Assembly (NCBI RefSeq): GCF_005519465.1
Contig: NZ_CP027858.1
Span: 1,240,001-1,304,000, forward strand
From: Streptomyces clavuligerus
Lineage (GTDB): Bacteria > Actinomycetota > Actinomycetes > Streptomycetales > Streptomycetaceae
Reading direction: 5' to 3'
Length of the DNA stretch: 64,000 bases
In this document: one piece after another, positions 20,426 to 27,368 of the stretch
How the letters are laid out: each line of letters starts with the position of its first letter
Numbering within the stretch: position 1 is the stretch's first letter
The notes under the pieces: model-generated
What the model saw: only the letters and a program-made list of their open reading frames with translations
The model's database searches: none
Told to the model about the DNA's origin: nothing
Program-made: the position numbers and the translations under genes

Positions 20426-21646
20426 TCAGCCGCCGGGCACGGTCTCCCCGGTCCACTCCCCGGTCCATTCCGCGGCCGGTTCCGCCATGGCCGGTTCCGC
20501 CGCCGCCGGGCCGGGGGCTCCGGAGGCGTCGGGAACATCGGGAACATCGGGAACATCGGCGACATAGCGCAGGACGCCCCACATGCTCCGCTCGTCGGGG
20601 AGGTCCGCGGGGTCGTCGGTGACCGGGGTGCGGTCGAGCGCGGTCCGCAGGGCGGGGGCGTCGATGCCGGAGCCGATGAGGACGAGGTCGGTGCGGCGCT
20701 CGGCACCGGCGGGCCACGGCTCGGGGAGGAAGCGCAGAAAGCGGCCGACGGCGTGGACGGCGTACCGGTTGCGGGGGTCGGCCGCGCCGAAGTCGACGAA
20801 GCCCTTGATCCGGTAGAGCCCCTCGGGCCGGGAGTCGAGGAAGTCCAGCAGCCGCCGGGGGTGCAGGGGCCGCCCGGCGGTGAAGGCGACGCTGTCGTAG
20901 GACGCGTGCGGATGGCCCGCTCCCGCGTCGCAGCTCCCCGTACAGCTCCCGTCGCAGGTCCCGGCTCCGGGATGGGCGTCGTCCGCCGTCAGCAGATCGT
21001 CGAAGGCGAGCTGTCCCACCCGTTCCCCGGCGGGTCGGCGGTCGAAGAACAGCTCCGGGTCGACCCTCCCGTACACCGACTCCACGGCCGCGGCCCCGGG
21101 GGCGAGCGCGGCCAGCGCGGAGCGCAGCCGGGCCCGCGCGGCCCCGTCCACGCGGTCGGTCTTGTTGAGGACCACCAGGTCGGCGATGGCCAGATGGCGG
21201 TCGATCTCGGGGTGCCGCTCCCGGGTGGCGTCGAACTCGGCCGCGTCGACGACCTCGACGAGTCCTCCGTACACCACCCGTTCGTTCGCGGCGGCGAGCA
21301 CCATCCGCACCAGTTCCCGCGGCTCGGCCAGACCGCTCGCCTCGATCACGATCACATCGAGACGGGCGGCGGGCCGGGCCAGCTTCTCCAGGAAGACATC
21401 CAGCTCGGAGGCGTCGACGGCGCAGCACAGACAGCCGTTGCCGAGGGAGACCGTGGAGTCGCCGAGCTGGCCCGCGACCGTCATGGCGTCGATCTCGATG
21501 GAGCCGAAGTCGTTGACGATCGCGCCGATGCGGGTGCCCCGGCAGGCCCGCAGCAGATGGTTGAGCAGGGTGGTCTTGCCCGAGCCGAGGAAGCCCGCGA
21601 GGACGATGACGGGGATCTGCTTGCTCGGCGGGGGGACGGGACTCAC
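20426..21646 (-). CDS. CobW/YjiA-type GTPase, putative metal chaperone
   Basis: 406 residues. Walker A GFLGSGKTTLLN starts at residue 18; the metal-site CxCC motif is GNGCLCCAV; the guanine-specificity NKTD motif is VVLNKTDRV. The C-terminal CobW_C domain begins near LHPRRLLDFLDS. Between the domains sits an insert with three cysteines and two histidines (TCDGSCTGSCDAGAGHPH), which is a likely additional metal site. The family hands zinc or cobalt to client enzymes. Start GTG 21646 follows the citrate synthase stop by 12 bases, so it is probably the second gene of that operon. A short run of VPD repeats near residues 365-374 is encoded by three tandem GGGAACATC units. The client metal is inference. 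Confidence 0.88.
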   Translation of the reverse strand: MSPVPPPSKQIPVIVLAGFLGSGKTTLLNHLLRACRGTRIGAIVNDFGSIEIDAMTVAGQLGDSTVSLGNGCLCCAVDASELDVFLEKLARPAARLDVIVIEASGLAEPRELVRMVLAAANERVVYGGLVEVVDAAEFDATRERHPEIDRHLAIADLVVLNKTDRVDGAARARLRSALAALAPGAAAVESVYGRVDPELFFDRRPAGERVGQLAFDDLLTADDAHPGAGTCDGSCTGSCDAGAGHPHASYDSVAFTAGRPLHPRRLLDFLDSRPEGLYRIKGFVDFGAADPRNRYAVHAVGRFLRFLPEPWPAGAERRTDLVLIGSGIDAPALRTALDRTPVTDDPADLPDERSMWGVLRYVADVPDVPDVPDASGAPGPAAAEPAMAEPAAEWTGEWTGETVPGG

Positions 21647-21658
21647 CTGGGGCCTCTC

Positions 21659-22867
21659 TCAGACGGCGGGCACGGGCTGCGGCGGGGGCGGGCCGACATA
21701 GCGGGCCGCCGGGCGGATGATCTTCGAGTCCGCCGCCTGCTCCAGGATATTGGCGCTCCAGCCGACCACCCGGGCCGCGCAGAAGGTGGGGGTGAACATC
21801 TCCCGGGGCAGCCCGCACAGCTCCATGACCACACCGGCGTAGAACTCCACGTTGGTGTGCAGCTCGCGCCCCGGCTTCAGCTCGGCGAGGATCGCGACGA
21901 CCTCCTTCTCCACCTGGACGGCGAACTCCACCAGCGGTCCGCCGAAGCCCTCCGCGACGGAGCGCAGCATCCGGGAGCGGGGGTCCTCGGTGCGGTAGAC
22001 GGGGTGGCCGAAGCCCATGATGCGGCTTCCCGCGAGGACCCGTTCGGTGATCCAGGGGCGAATCCGGTCGGGGGTGCCGATGGCGTCGAGGGTGTCGAGG
22101 GCACGGCTGGGGGCGCCGCCGTGGAGGGGTCCCGAGAGCGCGCCGATCGCACCGGTCAGACCGGCCACGACATCGGCGCCGGTGGACGCGATCACCCGGC
22201 CGGTGAAGGTGGAGGCGTTGAACCCGTGGTCCACCGTGGAGACGAGATAGCGCTCGACCGCCCGTGCCCGGGCGGGCTCCGGCTCGGTGCCGCTGAGCAT
22301 GTACAGATAGTTGGCGGCGTACGGCAGGTCGGTGCGCGGCTCGACCGGCTCCAGGCCGCGGGACAGCCGGTGGAGCGCGGTGAGCAGGGTGGGGACGGCG
22401 GCGCAGGCGGTGAGCGCGTCGGCGCGGCGGGCGTCCGGGTCCAGGTCGTACACGGGGCGCATACCGGTGGCCGCGCCGAGCAGGGAGAGCGCGGTGCGCA
22501 GCCCGGCGAGGGGCCCGGAGGCCGGCCCGGCGTGCGCGATCGCGGGGAGCGCGGCCCGTACCGCGTCGGGCAGACGGCGCAGCCGGGCGGTGTGCGCGAG
22601 GAAGGCGGCCCCTTCGGCGGCGTCCGGGAGCCGGCCGTGGAACATCAGGTGCCAGACGTCCTCGAACGTCCGGCTCTCGGCCAGTTCGACGGCCGAGTAC
22701 TGGCGGTAGTGGTAGAAGCCCTCGCGGCCCCGGACGTCCCCCAGCCCGGTGTCGGTGACGACGACACCCGCGAGCCCGCGCGGCACGGCCCTGACACCTC
22801 CGGCGGCCGGTGTTGCTTCTGTGGTCGGTGTCGTCCCTGTGGTCGGCGTTCCTTCGGCGCTCTGCAT
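21659..22867 (-). CDS. Citrate synthase-family protein (type II, small form)
   Basis: 402 residues. Citrate synthase landmarks are present: GPLHGGAPSRALD with the first catalytic His, GFGHPVYRTEDPRS with the second, and NVEFYAGVVM where the third catalytic residue is usually Asp but is Glu here. The CoA/oxaloacetate arginines fall in the last third (EQAADSKIIRPAARYVG). The protein may be a citrate synthase or 2-methylcitrate synthase; the Asp-to-Glu change could lower or alter activity. The start ATG 22867 has GGAGGAGG exactly positioned. The first 20-odd residues are Thr-rich and poorly conserved. It shares a 103-base divergent promoter with the HTH-citrate synthase gene. Confidence 0.88.
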   Translation of the reverse strand: MQSAEGTPTTGTTPTTEATPAAGGVRAVPRGLAGVVVTDTGLGDVRGREGFYHYRQYSAVELAESRTFEDVWHLMFHGRLPDAAEGAAFLAHTARLRRLPDAVRAALPAIAHAGPASGPLAGLRTALSLLGAATGMRPVYDLDPDARRADALTACAAVPTLLTALHRLSRGLEPVEPRTDLPYAANYLYMLSGTEPEPARARAVERYLVSTVDHGFNASTFTGRVIASTGADVVAGLTGAIGALSGPLHGGAPSRALDTLDAIGTPDRIRPWITERVLAGSRIMGFGHPVYRTEDPRSRMLRSVAEGFGGPLVEFAVQVEKEVVAILAELKPGRELHTNVEFYAGVVMELCGLPREMFTPTFCAARVVGWSANILEQAADSKIIRPAARYVGPPPPQPVPAV

Positions 22868-22970
22868 GGCGGCCTCCTCCATCAAAGATTGATTTGACTG
22901 TCCATGCTTGAATCTCCAGGTGTCAATGTTGATTGAATCAATATGCATGGGGGGTGTGTACGGTGTCCTC
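22868..22970. promoter_or_regulatory. Divergent promoter with AT-rich palindromes
   Basis: This 103-base intergenic region is strikingly AT-rich for this genome. It holds a perfect 6-bp inverted repeat TTGATT-G-AATCAA at 22929-22941, and an imperfect one, TCAAA/TTTGA, at 22882-22897 around GATTGA. The first lies close to the expected promoter of the right gene and the second next to the ATG of the left gene. They look like operators for a dimeric regulator; the helix-turn-helix/citrate synthase fusion next door is the obvious candidate. Confidence 0.55.
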
Positions 22971-24269
22971 ATGACGGATCACGCGGCCGAGGCGGAGCGG
23001 CTGACCACCCGTGAGGCGGCCGAGCGGCTGGGGGTGAAGCCCGCGACGCTGTACGCGTATGTCAGCCGGGGACTGCTCACCAGCCGCCGCGGCCCCGGCG
23101 GCCGGGGCAGCACCTTCGATCCCCAGGAGGTCGACGCGCTGGTGCGCCGCAACCGCCGGGAGGCCGCGTCCGGCGGCGAGCCGACCCAGCGCATCCGCAC
23201 CGGCCTCACGCTGATCGACGCGGACCGCTACTGGTTCCGCGGCGTCGACGCCGTCGAGCTGGCCCGCCGGTACCCGTACGAGACGGTCGCGGAGTGGCTC
23301 TGGACGGGGACCCTGCGGCCCTCGGTCCGTTTCACCGCCCCGCCCGACGCGCTCGCGGCGGCCCGGCGCGCGGTCGCGGCGCTCCCCGCGAACAGCGGCT
23401 CCACGGACCGGCTGCGGGTCGCGGCCATCGCCGCCGCCGTCACCGACCCGGTCCGCTTCGACCTCGGGCGGGACGCGGTCCTCGGCAGCGCCCGGATGCT
23501 GATCCCCACCCTCGTGGAGGCCCTGCCGCCGACCGGGGCCGCGGCACGGGCGGGTACGGCCGCGGAGGCGGCCGGTCCGGAGACCGGCGGGCCCTCGGAC
23601 GGGGCCGTACCGATCGCCCGGCGGCTGTGGCCCCGGCTGACCGCCGCGGAGCCCGGTCCGGCGGCGGTCCGGGTACTGGACCTGGCGCTGGCGCTCCTCG
23701 CCGACCACGACCTGGCCGCGTCGACGCTCGCCGTCCGGGTCGCGGCCTCGGCCCGTGCCCATCCCTACGCCGTCGTCTCGGCCGGGCTCGGCGCCCTGGA
23801 CGGGCCGCTGCACGGCGCCGCCAGCGGCCTCACCCACCGGATGCTCACCGAGGTGCTGGAACGCGGCAGCGCGGCGGCGGTCGTCGCCGACCATCTGCGG
23901 GCGGGCCGCCGGGTGCCCGGCCTCGGACACCGGCTCTACCCGGGCCGCGACCCCCGCGCCGAGGCGCTCCTCGCCGCCCTGGAGCCCCTTCCCGAGGCCC
24001 GCGCGGCACTGGAGGCGGCCCGCGAGGTGGAGGCCGTCACCGCCCGGCAGATGGCGCTGAACGCCAATGTCGACCTGGCGCTGGGCGTGCTCTCGGTCTC
24101 CTTCGGCATGCCAGCCGAGGCCGGTGAGACCGTGTTCGCGGTGGCGCGCACGGCGGGGTGGATCGCCCACGCCCTGGAGGAGTACGAGGAACGCCCCCTG
24201 CGGCTGCGCCCCAGCGGGCAGTACACGGGGCCCCGCCCACCGCGCCCGCTGCCCGAGCCGGAGCACTGA
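22971..24269 (+). CDS. Helix-turn-helix / citrate synthase fusion protein
   Basis: 432 residues. The N-terminus (about 8-60) is a MerR/HTH_17-type DNA-binding domain, with LTTREAAERLGVKPATLYAYVSRGLLTSRR. The rest is a citrate synthase fold: GPLHGAASGLTH (catalytic His), GLGHRLYPGRDPR (second His) and NANVDLALGVLSVSFG (Asp present here). The linker region around 190-225 is Ala/Gly/Pro-rich. No good Shine-Dalgarno precedes ATG 22971 (TGTCCTCATG), so it may be translated from a leaderless mRNA. It is divergent from another citrate synthase. Whether it is an enzyme, a ligand-sensing repressor with an unused active site, or both, cannot be settled here. Confidence 0.88.
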   Translation: MTDHAAEAERLTTREAAERLGVKPATLYAYVSRGLLTSRRGPGGRGSTFDPQEVDALVRRNRREAASGGEPTQRIRTGLTLIDADRYWFRGVDAVELARRYPYETVAEWLWTGTLRPSVRFTAPPDALAAARRAVAALPANSGSTDRLRVAAIAAAVTDPVRFDLGRDAVLGSARMLIPTLVEALPPTGAAARAGTAAEAAGPETGGPSDGAVPIARRLWPRLTAAEPGPAAVRVLDLALALLADHDLAASTLAVRVAASARAHPYAVVSAGLGALDGPLHGAASGLTHRMLTEVLERGSAAAVVADHLRAGRRVPGLGHRLYPGRDPRAEALLAALEPLPEARAALEAAREVEAVTARQMALNANVDLALGVLSVSFGMPAEAGETVFAVARTAGWIAHALEEYEERPLRLRPSGQYTGPRPPRPLPEPEH

Positions 24270-24876
24270 GGCCCGGCGTATCCCTGCGGCGGGCCTGAGC
24301 CCGGCATACCCGTACGGCGGGAACACGCCGGAGGGACCCGTCACACCCGACTCGGGGCGCGAACCCGGGGCCCGGCGGCATCCGGGCAAGGTCACACAGG
24401 TCCCACGGGCACCGCCGACGGGCTGGGGAGCCCGCCCGCTCCAGGCCGCGCCGTCACCGTCCCGTCCGGTCGGCGGCGCCCTGCGCGCTCCCCTCCCCCG
24501 GCCTGGCGGGCACAGGGAGGTGCCCCCGATCCCCGGTGCGGCGCGAGGGGAGCGCTCCACCGCAGGGCCCTCTCCGCCCCGCGATCGCCCGCACCGGGCG
24601 GACGACGCCGACGCCGTCCCGACGGCGCTCCCCGGCCAGAGCCGGTGGGGGCCACCGGGACGGCACACCCGGACCGGACCGTTCCGTACAGCCACCCCGG
24701 GCGGGGCGGCTGTACGGCGGCGGACCCGTCCGGCACGCGGGCCCGGCCTCCGGAGCCACCGGGCCCGGGCCGGCATCCGGGCAGATCACCGGCGTCGCGG
24801 GGCCGCCCGCTCCGCCCCGGGCCCGGCACAGGGGCGGATTTCGGAAAGCACCCCTGTCCGTTTACCGTTCATAGAC
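24270..24876. other. Non-coding gap before the citrate-type sensor kinase
   Basis: 607 bases with no supported gene. It is G+C-rich apart from the last 30 bases and contains only open frames that look like composition artefacts. The promoter of the sensor kinase must lie here, but I see no confident consensus and no inverted repeat comparable to those in the citrate synthase promoter. Confidence 0.5.
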
Positions 24877-26592
24877 ATGAGCCCGGAACCGACCGCACCG
24901 CCCCGCCGTCGGCGGATCGGCTGGCCCCAGCGGGTCTTCTCCCAGGTCCTGCTGATGCAGCTCGCCATCGCCACCGGTGTGACCGTGCTGGCCACCGGCT
25001 TCTTCCTGGCGCCGCTCTCCGCGCAACTCGACGACCAGGCCATGCGCAGGGCCCTGGCCATCGCCCAGACCGCCGCCTCCCCCCAGGTCGCCGACGGGCT
25101 CGCCACCACCCGGCCCACCGCCACCGGCCCGGTCCAGACGGAGGCCGAGCGGATTCGCCGGACCACCGGCGCCGAATATGTCGTGATCATGGACATGACC
25201 GGGGTGCGCTGGTCCCACACCTCCCCCGAGCAGATCGGACGGCTGGTCTCCACCGACCCCAGCGCCGCCCTCGCGGGCCGGGAGGTCATGGAGATCGACG
25301 ACGGCACCCTGGGCCGCTCCGCCCGGGGCAAGGTCCCGCTCCGGGACGACGCGGGACGGATCATCGGCGCGGTCTCCGTCGGCATCGAGTACGACAGCGT
25401 CCGGGACCGTCTGTTCTCCGCCATCCCCGGGATGCTCCTGTACGCGGGCGGCGCGCTGGCCGCCGGGGCGATCGCCGCCTATCTGATCTCCCGCCGGCTC
25501 CAGCGCCAAACCCATGACCTGGCCTTCTCCGATATCTCCGCCCTGCTGGCGGAGCGCGAGGCCATGCTGCACGGCATCCGTGAAGGTGTCGTGGCGCTCG
25601 ACGCGACCGGCCGGATCCGGCTGATGAACGACGAGGCCCAGCGCCTCCTGGGACTGGAGTCCGACGGCCGCGGACTGCCCCTCGACGAGGTGCTGGGCGC
25701 GGGCCGCACCGCCGATGTCCTGGCGGGCCGGGTCACCGGCGAGGACCTGCTCGCCGTGCGCGGCCACCGGGTGCTGATCACCAACCGGATGCCGACCGAC
25801 GACGGCGGCGCCGTCGCCACCCTGCGCGACCGCACCGAACTGGAACGGCTCGGCCGGGAGCTGGACTCCACCCGCGGGCTCATCGACGCCCTGCGCGCCC
25901 AGGACCACGAGCACGCCAACCGGATGCACACCCTGCTCGGCCTGCTGGAGCTGGAGATGCACGACGAGGCGGTCTCCTTCGTCACCGAGGTGGTCGGGGT
26001 GCACCGGGCCACCGCCGAACAGGTCACCGAGAAGATCCACGACCCGCTGCTGGCCTCCCTGCTCGTCGGCAAGGCGACGGTGGCCGCCGAGCGCGGTGTC
26101 TCACTGCGGATCGCGCCGGGCACCCTGCTCCCCGACCGGGTCGTGGACCCGCGCGGGCTGGTCACGGTCCTGGGCAACCTCGTCGACAACGCGATGGACG
26201 CGGCGGCCGGATCGGCGGAGCCGGGGATCGAGGTCGAGCTGTCGTCCGAGGGCCGCACGGCGGTACTGCGGGTCGCCGACACCGGCCCCGGGGTCCCGCC
26301 GGAGCAGCGCGAGCAGATCTTCACCGAGGGCTGGACCACCAAGGAGCTGCCCGCGCACGGCAAGCGCGGGCTGGGCCTCGCCCTGGTGCGCAGACTCGCC
26401 GAGCGGCAGGGCGGCAGCGCCCTGGTGCGCGAGGCCGAGGGCGGCGGCGCCGAGTTCGTCGTGGTCCTGCCCGAGGCCCTGGCACCCGAGGCGCTGACGG
26501 ACGGGACACCGACGGACGAGGGCCACGAGGGCTCCCCGGACGGCACGACGGCCCATGAGCCGAAGACCGCGACCGCGGCGGAGGCACGATGA
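24877..26592 (+). CDS. CitA/DcuS-type sensor histidine kinase
   Basis: 571 residues. Two membrane segments (about 20-45 and 180-205) flank a periplasmic-side PAS/Cache domain with YVVIMDMTGVRWSHTSPEQIG and VPLRDDAGRIIGAVSVGIEYD, which is the CitA/DcuS/DctB ligand fold for C4-dicarboxylates or citrate. A cytoplasmic PAS region (about 230-320) follows, then the phosphoacceptor box DHEHANRMHTLLGLLELE, then HATPase_c with NLVDNAMDAA and DTGPGVP and GLGLALVRRL. The family reports extracellular carboxylates. Downstream of two citrate synthases, citrate or a related acid is the likely signal, which is inference. The ATG has no strong Shine-Dalgarno (preceded by TTCATAGAC). The response regulator overlaps the stop. 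Confidence 0.92.
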   Translation: MSPEPTAPPRRRRIGWPQRVFSQVLLMQLAIATGVTVLATGFFLAPLSAQLDDQAMRRALAIAQTAASPQVADGLATTRPTATGPVQTEAERIRRTTGAEYVVIMDMTGVRWSHTSPEQIGRLVSTDPSAALAGREVMEIDDGTLGRSARGKVPLRDDAGRIIGAVSVGIEYDSVRDRLFSAIPGMLLYAGGALAAGAIAAYLISRRLQRQTHDLAFSDISALLAEREAMLHGIREGVVALDATGRIRLMNDEAQRLLGLESDGRGLPLDEVLGAGRTADVLAGRVTGEDLLAVRGHRVLITNRMPTDDGGAVATLRDRTELERLGRELDSTRGLIDALRAQDHEHANRMHTLLGLLELEMHDEAVSFVTEVVGVHRATAEQVTEKIHDPLLASLLVGKATVAAERGVSLRIAPGTLLPDRVVDPRGLVTVLGNLVDNAMDAAAGSAEPGIEVELSSEGRTAVLRVADTGPGVPPEQREQIFTEGWTTKELPAHGKRGLGLALVRRLAERQGGSALVREAEGGGAEFVVVLPEALAPEALTDGTPTDEGHEGSPDGTTAHEPKTATAAEAR

Positions 26593-27368
26593 CGAACGGC
26601 AGCACGGTCGGCAACGGCAGGGTCGGCACCCCCGCCACGGACCCCACCGGCGCGGGCGGACCGCCGGGGCGTCCGGCGCCGGAGGGCATGATCGACGTCC
26701 TGGTGGTCGACGACGACATCAGGGTCGCGGGGATCAACGCCGCCTATGTCGCCAAGGTGCCCGGCTTCCGGGTCAGCGCCGAGGCCCACTCGGCCGCCGA
26801 GGCACTGGCCCGGATCGCCGACTCCCCCGCCGACCTCGTCCTCATGGACCACTATCTGCCGGACGGCAACGGCCTGGCGGTCGTCCGCGAGCTGCGCAGA
26901 CTCGGCCACCAGACCGACGTGATCATGGTGACGGCCGCCCGTGACGTGGCCACCGTGCAGGCGGCCATGCGCCACGGCGCCCTCCAGTACCTGGTGAAGC
27001 CGTTCAACTTCGCCGGACTGCGGACCAAGCTGGAGGCGTACGCGGGGCTGCGCCGCACCCTCGGCGGCGGGGGCGAGGCCGAACAGGCCGAGGTGGACCG
27101 GATCTTCGGGGCCCTCTCGGCCGGGGCCGCCGCCCCGGACCTGCCCAAGGGCCACTCCCCGACCACCGCCGAAGTGGTCCGCCAGGTGCTGCTGACGGCC
27201 GAGGGCCCGCTCTCCACACAGCTCATCGCGGAGCGCGCGGGGGTCAGCCGGCAGACCGCGCAGCGCTATCTCAAGCTGCTGGAACGGACGGGCCGGGTGC
27301 GGCTCAGCCTCAAGTACGGCGAGACGGGCCGCCCCGAGCACCGCTACCTCTGGTCGGCCCGGCCCTGA
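26589..27368 (+). CDS. CitB/DcuR-type response regulator
   Basis: 259 residues. A receiver domain holds the phosphorylatable Asp in LVLMDHYLPDG (about residue 87), with the acidic pocket VVDDD before it. The C-terminal half has a winged helix-turn-helix with GPLSTQLIAERAGVSRQTAQRYLKLLERTGRVRL, typical of the CitB/DcuR group. The first 33 residues are a Gly/Pro/Thr-rich extension without clear function, so a downstream start (MIDVLVVDD) is possible. ATG 26589 overlaps the kinase stop in ATGA, coupling the pair. Target genes are unknown; nearby citrate synthase promoters are candidates. Confidence 0.93.
   Translation: MTNGSTVGNGRVGTPATDPTGAGGPPGRPAPEGMIDVLVVDDDIRVAGINAAYVAKVPGFRVSAEAHSAAEALARIADSPADLVLMDHYLPDGNGLAVVRELRRLGHQTDVIMVTAARDVATVQAAMRHGALQYLVKPFNFAGLRTKLEAYAGLRRTLGGGGEAEQAEVDRIFGALSAGAAAPDLPKGHSPTTAEVVRQVLLTAEGPLSTQLIAERAGVSRQTAQRYLKLLERTGRVRLSLKYGETGRPEHRYLWSARP

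Follow-up and report, generated by a model that had tools for sequence, protein, structure and literature searches.

A winged helix-turn-helix (HTH)-citrate synthase fusion protein of Streptomyces clavuligerus is, judging from comparative sequence evidence, very probably the regulator of a short palindrome from which it would control the divergent citrate synthase gene (hereafter left CS) and, in relatives, an unlinked CoA-transferase gene, with its citrate synthase domain as sensor. We regard it as most likely a DNA-binding regulator of a small specific regulon, in which the citrate synthase fold would act as effector domain. The window (the whole 64,000-nt stretch of DNA that was analysed) holds the following features around the spacer between the two genes.

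21659..22867, minus strand: divergent citrate synthase gene (left CS), start codon 22867-22865, assigned by Pfam, NF009005 and active-site counts.
22873..22880, minus strand: Shine-Dalgarno-like GGAGGAGG of left CS, read from the sequence.
22889..22913, no strand assigned: block A TTGATTTGACTGTCCATGCTTGAAT (consensus TTGATTCGACTGTCCATGCTTGACT), conserved, with two TTGA half-site-like hexamers.
22897..22902, minus strand: GACAGT, putative -10 of the left CS promoter, 18 nt from the -35, in conserved columns.
22921..22926, minus strand: TTGACA, putative -35 of the left CS promoter, 2 nt from the palindrome, in columns 96-98% conserved across 126 spacers.
22929..22941, no strand assigned: perfect palindrome TTGATTGAATCAA (TTGATT-G-AATCAA), centre 22935, proposed operator.
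22959..22964, plus strand: TACGGT, putative -10 of a leaderless fusion promoter, 6 nt to the ATG.
22971..24269, plus strand: HTH-citrate synthase fusion gene, 432 aa, proposed regulator; winged HTH at residues 11-62, disordered linker at about 64-72, citrate synthase fold at 74-432.

The fusion of a MerR/HTH domain to a citrate synthase fold, as claimed in the initial annotation, is real. The open reading frame at 22971-24269 (+) matched MerR/HTH_17 over residues 11-62 and citrate synthase over residues 74-409, all above the Pfam cut-offs. The MerR-type winged HTH scored 33.0/28.2 bits with PF00376 and 29.6/21.6 bits with PF13411, and the synthase part reached 211.5 bits with PF00285 against a gathering score of 27. 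An HTH joined to an enzyme fold was indicated by both Pfam and the structure search: among the best 50 Foldseek matches listed, all were citrate or methylcitrate synthases, the best fold among the matches listed was 6s6f PrpC and the best PDB sequence 6abx, and the 60 PDB matches listed covered the synthase part alone. The HTH segment VKPETVYAYVSRG was nearly invariant among the aligned fusions. None of the NCBIfam synthase profiles searched reached its cut-off with the fusion (TIGR01800, 2-methylcitrate/citrate synthase II, gave 156.9 bits, below the curated 421.3), and the NCBIfam BldC profile stayed below its own (19.7 bits against 77). Among the 120 closest database proteins listed, the named ones were called citrate synthase, citrate/2-methylcitrate synthase, citrate synthase family protein or helix-turn-helix protein.

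With the citrate/2-methylcitrate synthase family (PF00285) the fusion shares the fold and most active-site residues, to which it adds the N-terminal winged HTH. With the MerR family (PF00376, PF13411) it has in common the N-terminal winged HTH and a short AT-rich palindrome, but the MerR coiled coil and C-terminal effector domain are absent, and the short disordered linker leads instead into a whole enzyme fold. MocR/GabR proteins (aminotransferase fold) and ROK repressors (sugar kinase fold) likewise combine an HTH with a metabolic enzyme fold as sensor. They may be the best analogy for the fusion's way of working, although the enzyme folds are unrelated and the likeness is one of analogy.

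The divergent citrate synthase gene was also correctly annotated and lies on the minus strand. Its product scored slightly above the NF009005 cut-off and 321.4 bits with TIGR01800, below the cut-off of 421.3. A CobW-type GTPase gene (20426-21646) lies directly downstream of left CS, and directly downstream of the fusion, 24781-27368 encodes a sensor kinase (sCache_3_2, SpoOB-type) and a DcuR/DpiA-like response regulator.

The annotated TTGATT-G-AATCAA is indeed a perfect inverted repeat, and a rare one. TTGATTGAATCAA was the sole match at <=2 mismatches in the window (shuffle mean 0.03; at least one match in 3 of 100 shuffles) and the sole match at <=1 mismatch in the 8.5-Mb genome. Its distribution was surveyed in 199 Streptomyces genomes including the window's own, with presence of the fusion set at E <= 1e-40. 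The fusion was found in 130 genomes, a few fragmentary or split copies included (G102, G112, G137), and a renewed search of the 69 others with more candidates scored gave 0/69. Results showed that the exact palindrome occurred in 95 of the 199 genomes; every one of the 95 has the fusion, and the 69 fusion-less genomes contain no exact copy. The palindrome read backwards, used as control, had no exact match in the 199. The relaxed form ATTGATNNNATCAAT was present in 76/199 genomes, among them one of the 69 fusion-less genomes (G185), and its backwards control matched once (G035). At one mismatch the backwards 13-mer was itself found in 2 of 10 genomes, so hits of that quality outside these promoters say little. 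The 95 genomes held 100 exact copies (five genomes with two), of which 85 lay in the fusion/CS spacer, 14 at a CoA-transferase promoter and one inside a low-GC open reading frame of G079; this stray copy's frame looks like a DNA methylase gene.

Fusion loci were read in 129 of the 130 genomes, 130 loci in all (G152 twice, G102 left out). An exact copy stood <=200 nt upstream of the fusion in 85 of them, and the best site in the spacer had 0 mismatches in 85, 1 in 29, 2 in 9, 3 in 3 and more in 4 (L114, L121 and L122, all without left CS, and L116). Conservation in relatives keeping the gene pair had been set beforehand as the refutation test for the palindrome, and the palindrome withstood it: 114/130 loci carried it at <=1 mismatch. 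The second inverted repeat in the annotation, TCAAA/TTTGA, is present in the window but unconserved, its TTTGA arm occurring in 14/126 spacers and its TCAAA arm at that place in 1/126, and it was rejected as an operator. In G137 (L130) the fusion matched in two pieces and may be broken or frameshifted, with the exact site still there.

To place the palindrome within the spacer, we aligned the 126 spacers with a site at <=3 mismatches. A module of ~56 bp, TTGATTCGACTGTCCATGCTTGACT-N6-CTGTCAATATTGATTGAATCAATAT, ran through them in one register: block A fitted best at that spacing in 119/126 spacers and had <=5 mismatches of 25 there in 101/126. On the minus strand the module reads TTGACA-N18-GACAGT, which would be the left CS promoter; the palindrome lies upstream of its -35, at a distance of 2 nt. 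One group of loci, L020 among them, has a left-gene ATG 6 nt after the GACAGT element. The reported lack of a Shine-Dalgarno sequence holds for the fusion but not for left CS, which has the Shine-Dalgarno-like GGAGGAGG. A leaderless fusion transcript, as proposed, fits the spacer, in which TACGGT ends 6 nt before the ATG; a -10-like hexamer stood 6-7 nt before a start codon in 108/130 fusion loci, by a pattern drawn up after sight of these spacers. The distance from the palindrome to this -10 varied from 6 to 64 nt in 114 loci, with 30 distinct values. Helical phasing between the two was considered and dropped: the raw counts (6, 16-17 and 28-30 nt) were suggestive, but the signal was gone with each distance counted once (R 0.09 at 10.5 bp).

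Natural deletions bear on the further claim that the fusion autoregulates the pair. Left CS (E <= 1e-90) was found in only 1/69 fusion-less genomes (G027, L308), where no site at <=3 mismatches appeared in the 4.1 kb read. At 6/130 fusion loci the divergent left CS is missing. In G095 it lies elsewhere, minus its first 49 residues, and the intact site beside the fusion adjoins a left CS fragment; in G032 it is rearranged close by, and fusion and left CS each have a one-mismatch copy. In this last locus (L147) the two genes are on one strand, each with its own copy of the site. Four genomes (G110, G107, G013 and G181) lack left CS altogether (best match 42-43%). All four retain the fusion and its -10, of the TACGGTG or TACCGTG type, while the fusion-side site has 6, 6, 6 and 3 mismatches, respectively; the CoA-transferase site is exact in G110, G107 and G013 and has one mismatch in G181. 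Loss or decay of the site in 4/4 left-CS-less genomes, with the CoA-transferase site kept, indicates that the site follows left CS and the CoA-transferase more than the fusion promoter.

The site goes with the fusion gene, but the register kept with the left CS promoter and the loss or decay in all four genomes leave autoregulation unestablished. Chances are about even that the site serves as operator of left CS (and the CoA-transferase) alone, the fusion acting in trans and not on itself. The TTGACA-N18-GACAGT register, fixed in 119/126 loci against a fusion -10 distance varying from 6 to 64 nt, argues for this restriction, as does loss or decay of the fusion-side site in 4/4 genomes without left CS, the -10 still being there. 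In the window, however, the site ends 17 nt from the fusion -10, close enough to affect the fusion promoter, and G032 and G095 kept the site beside the fusion despite a rearranged left CS.

The unlinked gene downstream of 14 exact sites encodes a family III (CaiB/BaiF) CoA-transferase of ~458 aa (PF02515, 164 bits). We found this gene (E <= 1e-60) in 122/199 genomes, 73 with the fusion and 49 without; in the window's own genome the search yielded none (best match 37% over 200 residues). Promoters were covered for 96 of the 122 (61 fusion-bearing, 35 fusion-less); 12 fusion-bearing and 4 fusion-less ones were left out, and 10 fusion-less stretches had no match in the short piece. A site at <=1 mismatch was present in 26/61 promoters with the fusion and 0/35 without, and at <=2 mismatches in 30/61 and 1/35, respectively; the promoter had no site at <=1 mismatch in 35/61 fusion-bearing genomes. 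In 21 of the 26 promoters the site ends 17 nt before the CoA-transferase ATG, and these promoters usually have a CATAGT-like -10 ending 6 nt before it. Two fusion-less promoters (G067, G063) contain TTGACTGAGTCAA and TTGACTGAGGCAA, which look like decayed remnants of the site. Kinship was considered on a tree of 86 CoA-transferases (61 fusion-bearing, 25 fusion-less). The contrast of 26/61 with 0/25 gave a Fisher value of 2e-5 in a plain test that ignores kinship, whereas the tree has 14 changes of fusion status and 9 of site status. Of 8 independent pairs, the site agreed with fusion status in 2.9, ran counter to it in 0 and showed no difference in 5.1, which is not significant (median sign-test p 0.25). 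Shared ancestry accounts for part of the co-occurrence.

Three further observations concern these promoters and genes. A more distant CoA-transferase group has another palindrome, TGGCAC-N3-GTGCCA, directly before the start codon, probably another regulator's site, in both fusion-less (L195, L198, L200, L205) and fusion-bearing (L236, L238, L239) loci. In L134, L146, L157 and others the -10 region comes close to an inverted repeat, CTGCA-TAG-TGCAG, kept in fusion-less G067 as well. The CoA-transferase of G101 (L138) and that of G075 each matched in two pieces and may be broken or frameshifted; G101 keeps the exact site.

We propose that the fusion would be a one-component transcription factor in which the citrate synthase fold serves as effector domain. 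Citrate synthases are dimers, and a fusion dimer would put two winged HTHs on ATTGAT-N3-ATCAAT. From the palindrome it would control the divergent left CS gene and, in relatives with the unlinked family III CoA-transferase gene, that gene too. Ligand sensing by the citrate synthase domain is plausible: a substrate or product of citrate synthase (oxaloacetate, acyl-CoA or citrate) would switch DNA binding.

As to the sign of control, the site centre falls at about -45 at left CS and about -24 at the CoA-transferase, counted from putative start points. Because the same site thus occurs at two promoter positions that are both within RNA polymerase reach, ligand-relieved repression is slightly preferred over activation. 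Operators of MerR proteins lie in a lengthened -35/-10 spacer; the left CS spacer, by contrast, is 18 nt with the site outside it, and an inside position is possible at the CoA-transferase. The fusion could be imagined as an activator, bound just upstream of the left -35 and in the CoA-transferase -35/-10 spacer as MerR proteins are, a possibility that we entertain only tentatively. It agrees with the promoter geometry at both genes, with a CoA-transferase promoter in which no -35 consensus was seen, and with the 68/69 fusion-less genomes that are also without left CS. On the other side, the left promoter has the consensus -35 TTGACA, it would be unusual for a single activator to work at both -45 and -24, and CoA-transferase genes persist in 49/69 fusion-less genomes without an exact site.

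The alternative that another regulator binds the palindrome, be it the CitA/CitB-type response regulator (26589-27368), MtrA or a BldC-type protein, the fusion being merely an enzyme, we consider highly improbable. The response regulator recommends itself by its position, encoded with its kinase next to the fusion. When 13 candidates were scored per genome, however, it was present (E <= 1e-90) in 48/69 fusion-less genomes, none with the exact site, and the search at E <= 1e-50 missed it in 6 fusion-bearing genomes, of which 5 have the exact site (G171 is a single contig, but most of these assemblies are fragmented). Its distribution does not explain that of the site, and it was rejected as the DNA-binding partner. 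MtrA and BldC, being general Streptomyces regulators, leave the link between site and fusion unaccounted for. BldC has a MerR-like winged HTH too, but its repeat, AATTXXXX(C), is in direct orientation, against a palindrome here.

For MtrA, the accessible part of PMC12323332 describes binding to a S. coelicolor probe from the same intergenic region, at TTGACTTAACTGTCCA, -92 from SCO5831 and -16 from SCO5832, and a generally negative effect on both genes (citA3/citA4). SCO5831/SCO5832 are probably the same divergent pair, given the gene order in the accessible part of PMC9739823 and the resemblance of TTGACTTAACTGTCCA to block A. That same part of PMC12323332 treats both as putative citrate synthases and reports no HTH, palindrome or CoA-transferase link. 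The MtrA site published there corresponds to block A and not to the palindrome, so block A conservation may have more than one cause. Exact TTGACTTAACTGTCCA occurred in 0/130 fusion loci, where near variants such as TTGACTCAACTGTCCA were found. The TTGA half-site-like repeats lie in block A, but the core site is a palindrome.

The active site bears on whether the fusion, as regulator of this palindrome, would also be a working enzyme. Fusions were aligned in 178 rows (168 distinct sequences; 9/187 loci gave no row). The annotation that all three catalytic residues are present holds for H281, H320 and D368 of the window fusion and, in the pig citrate synthase numbering that we take for the catalytic residues, for His274 in 178/178, His320 in 177/178 and Asp375 in 177/178 rows. 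It leaves out a change seen in every fusion examined and setting them apart from the PF00285 family: Ala replaces the NAST-motif Asn in 178/178 rows. Left CS, counted in 175 of 180 rows (5 were the fusion itself), has the NAST Asn in 175/175 and Glu at the Asp375 position in 175/175. The presence of Ala in all 168 distinct fusions suggests a sensor, and the conserved but altered active site would fit a sensor better than a routine enzyme. A trigger enzyme, with citrate or methylcitrate synthase activity and DNA binding in one protein, we hold to be unlikely. Such an enzyme would account for the kept catalytic His/His/Asp and binding Arg (177-178/178 rows) and for a PF00285 score far above the cut-off; the uniform NAST Ala, set against the Asn of left CS, and the failure to reach any NCBIfam synthase cut-off argue against it.

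With its Glu for the catalytic Asp, left CS resembles B. subtilis CitA (2c6x), its best PDB match, which has Glu at this position too; left CS is possibly a slow or different synthase. The B. subtilis regulator CitR, divergent from CitA, is LysR-type and not a citrate synthase fusion, unlike the regulator proposed here.

The arrangement also extends beyond Streptomyces. Fusions of 40-60% identity are divergent from a left CS homologue in Rhodococcus, Mycobacterium sp. OTB74, a Microbacterium MAG, Jiangella, Phytoactinopolyspora, Allorhizocola, Actinoplanes and several Acidimicrobiia, and likewise in Actinacidiphila, whose fusion has 71% identity. Among 19 spacers outside Streptomyces (L297, L301, L302, L304 and L306, with a partial fusion only, and L273 being left out of the count), 18 had a site within one mismatch of TTGAT-N0-4-ATCAA, and 17 of the 19 gave p < 0.05 against first-order shuffles (exceptions L290 and L291). 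Pfam searches of 19 flanking open reading frames, taken from eight loci that lie outside the genus or in its distant members, otherwise gave unrelated families or no match. Because the flanking genes differ among loci, the conserved unit looks like the pair alone. In the Microbacterium MAG (L288) an aconitase gene adjoins left CS, the sole TCA-cycle neighbour among the flanking genes tested, and one Acidimicrobiales MAG has P450 and MeaB among them. Tandem sites occur in some Acidimicrobiia spacers; in two MAGs (L283, Actinomycetes; L289, Acidimicrobiales) the two palindromes are 15 bp apart, start to start, near the fusion start codon.

On balance we lean towards the view that these fusions form an undescribed class of one-component regulators, in which a catalytically altered citrate synthase fold (NAST Asn to Ala) would serve as metabolite sensor, inherited with an ATTGAT-N3-ATCAAT operator across Actinomycetota classes and coupling a dedicated minor citrate synthase and a family III CoA-transferase in one small regulon. 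Among the papers listed from one open-access library, which lacks most subscription papers, we found none presented as a description of this HTH-citrate synthase protein as regulator, and the string TTGATTGAATCAA occurred in no paper there. Given the names of the closest listed database proteins, the regulator may be misfiled as an enzyme. With the proposed operator and targets, a direct test needs one protein and two short DNA fragments. The TCA cycle begins with citrate synthase; if the proposal is true, a DNA-binding citrate synthase would sense its own substrates or products directly and thereby govern how a partner citrate synthase and a CoA-transferase are expressed.
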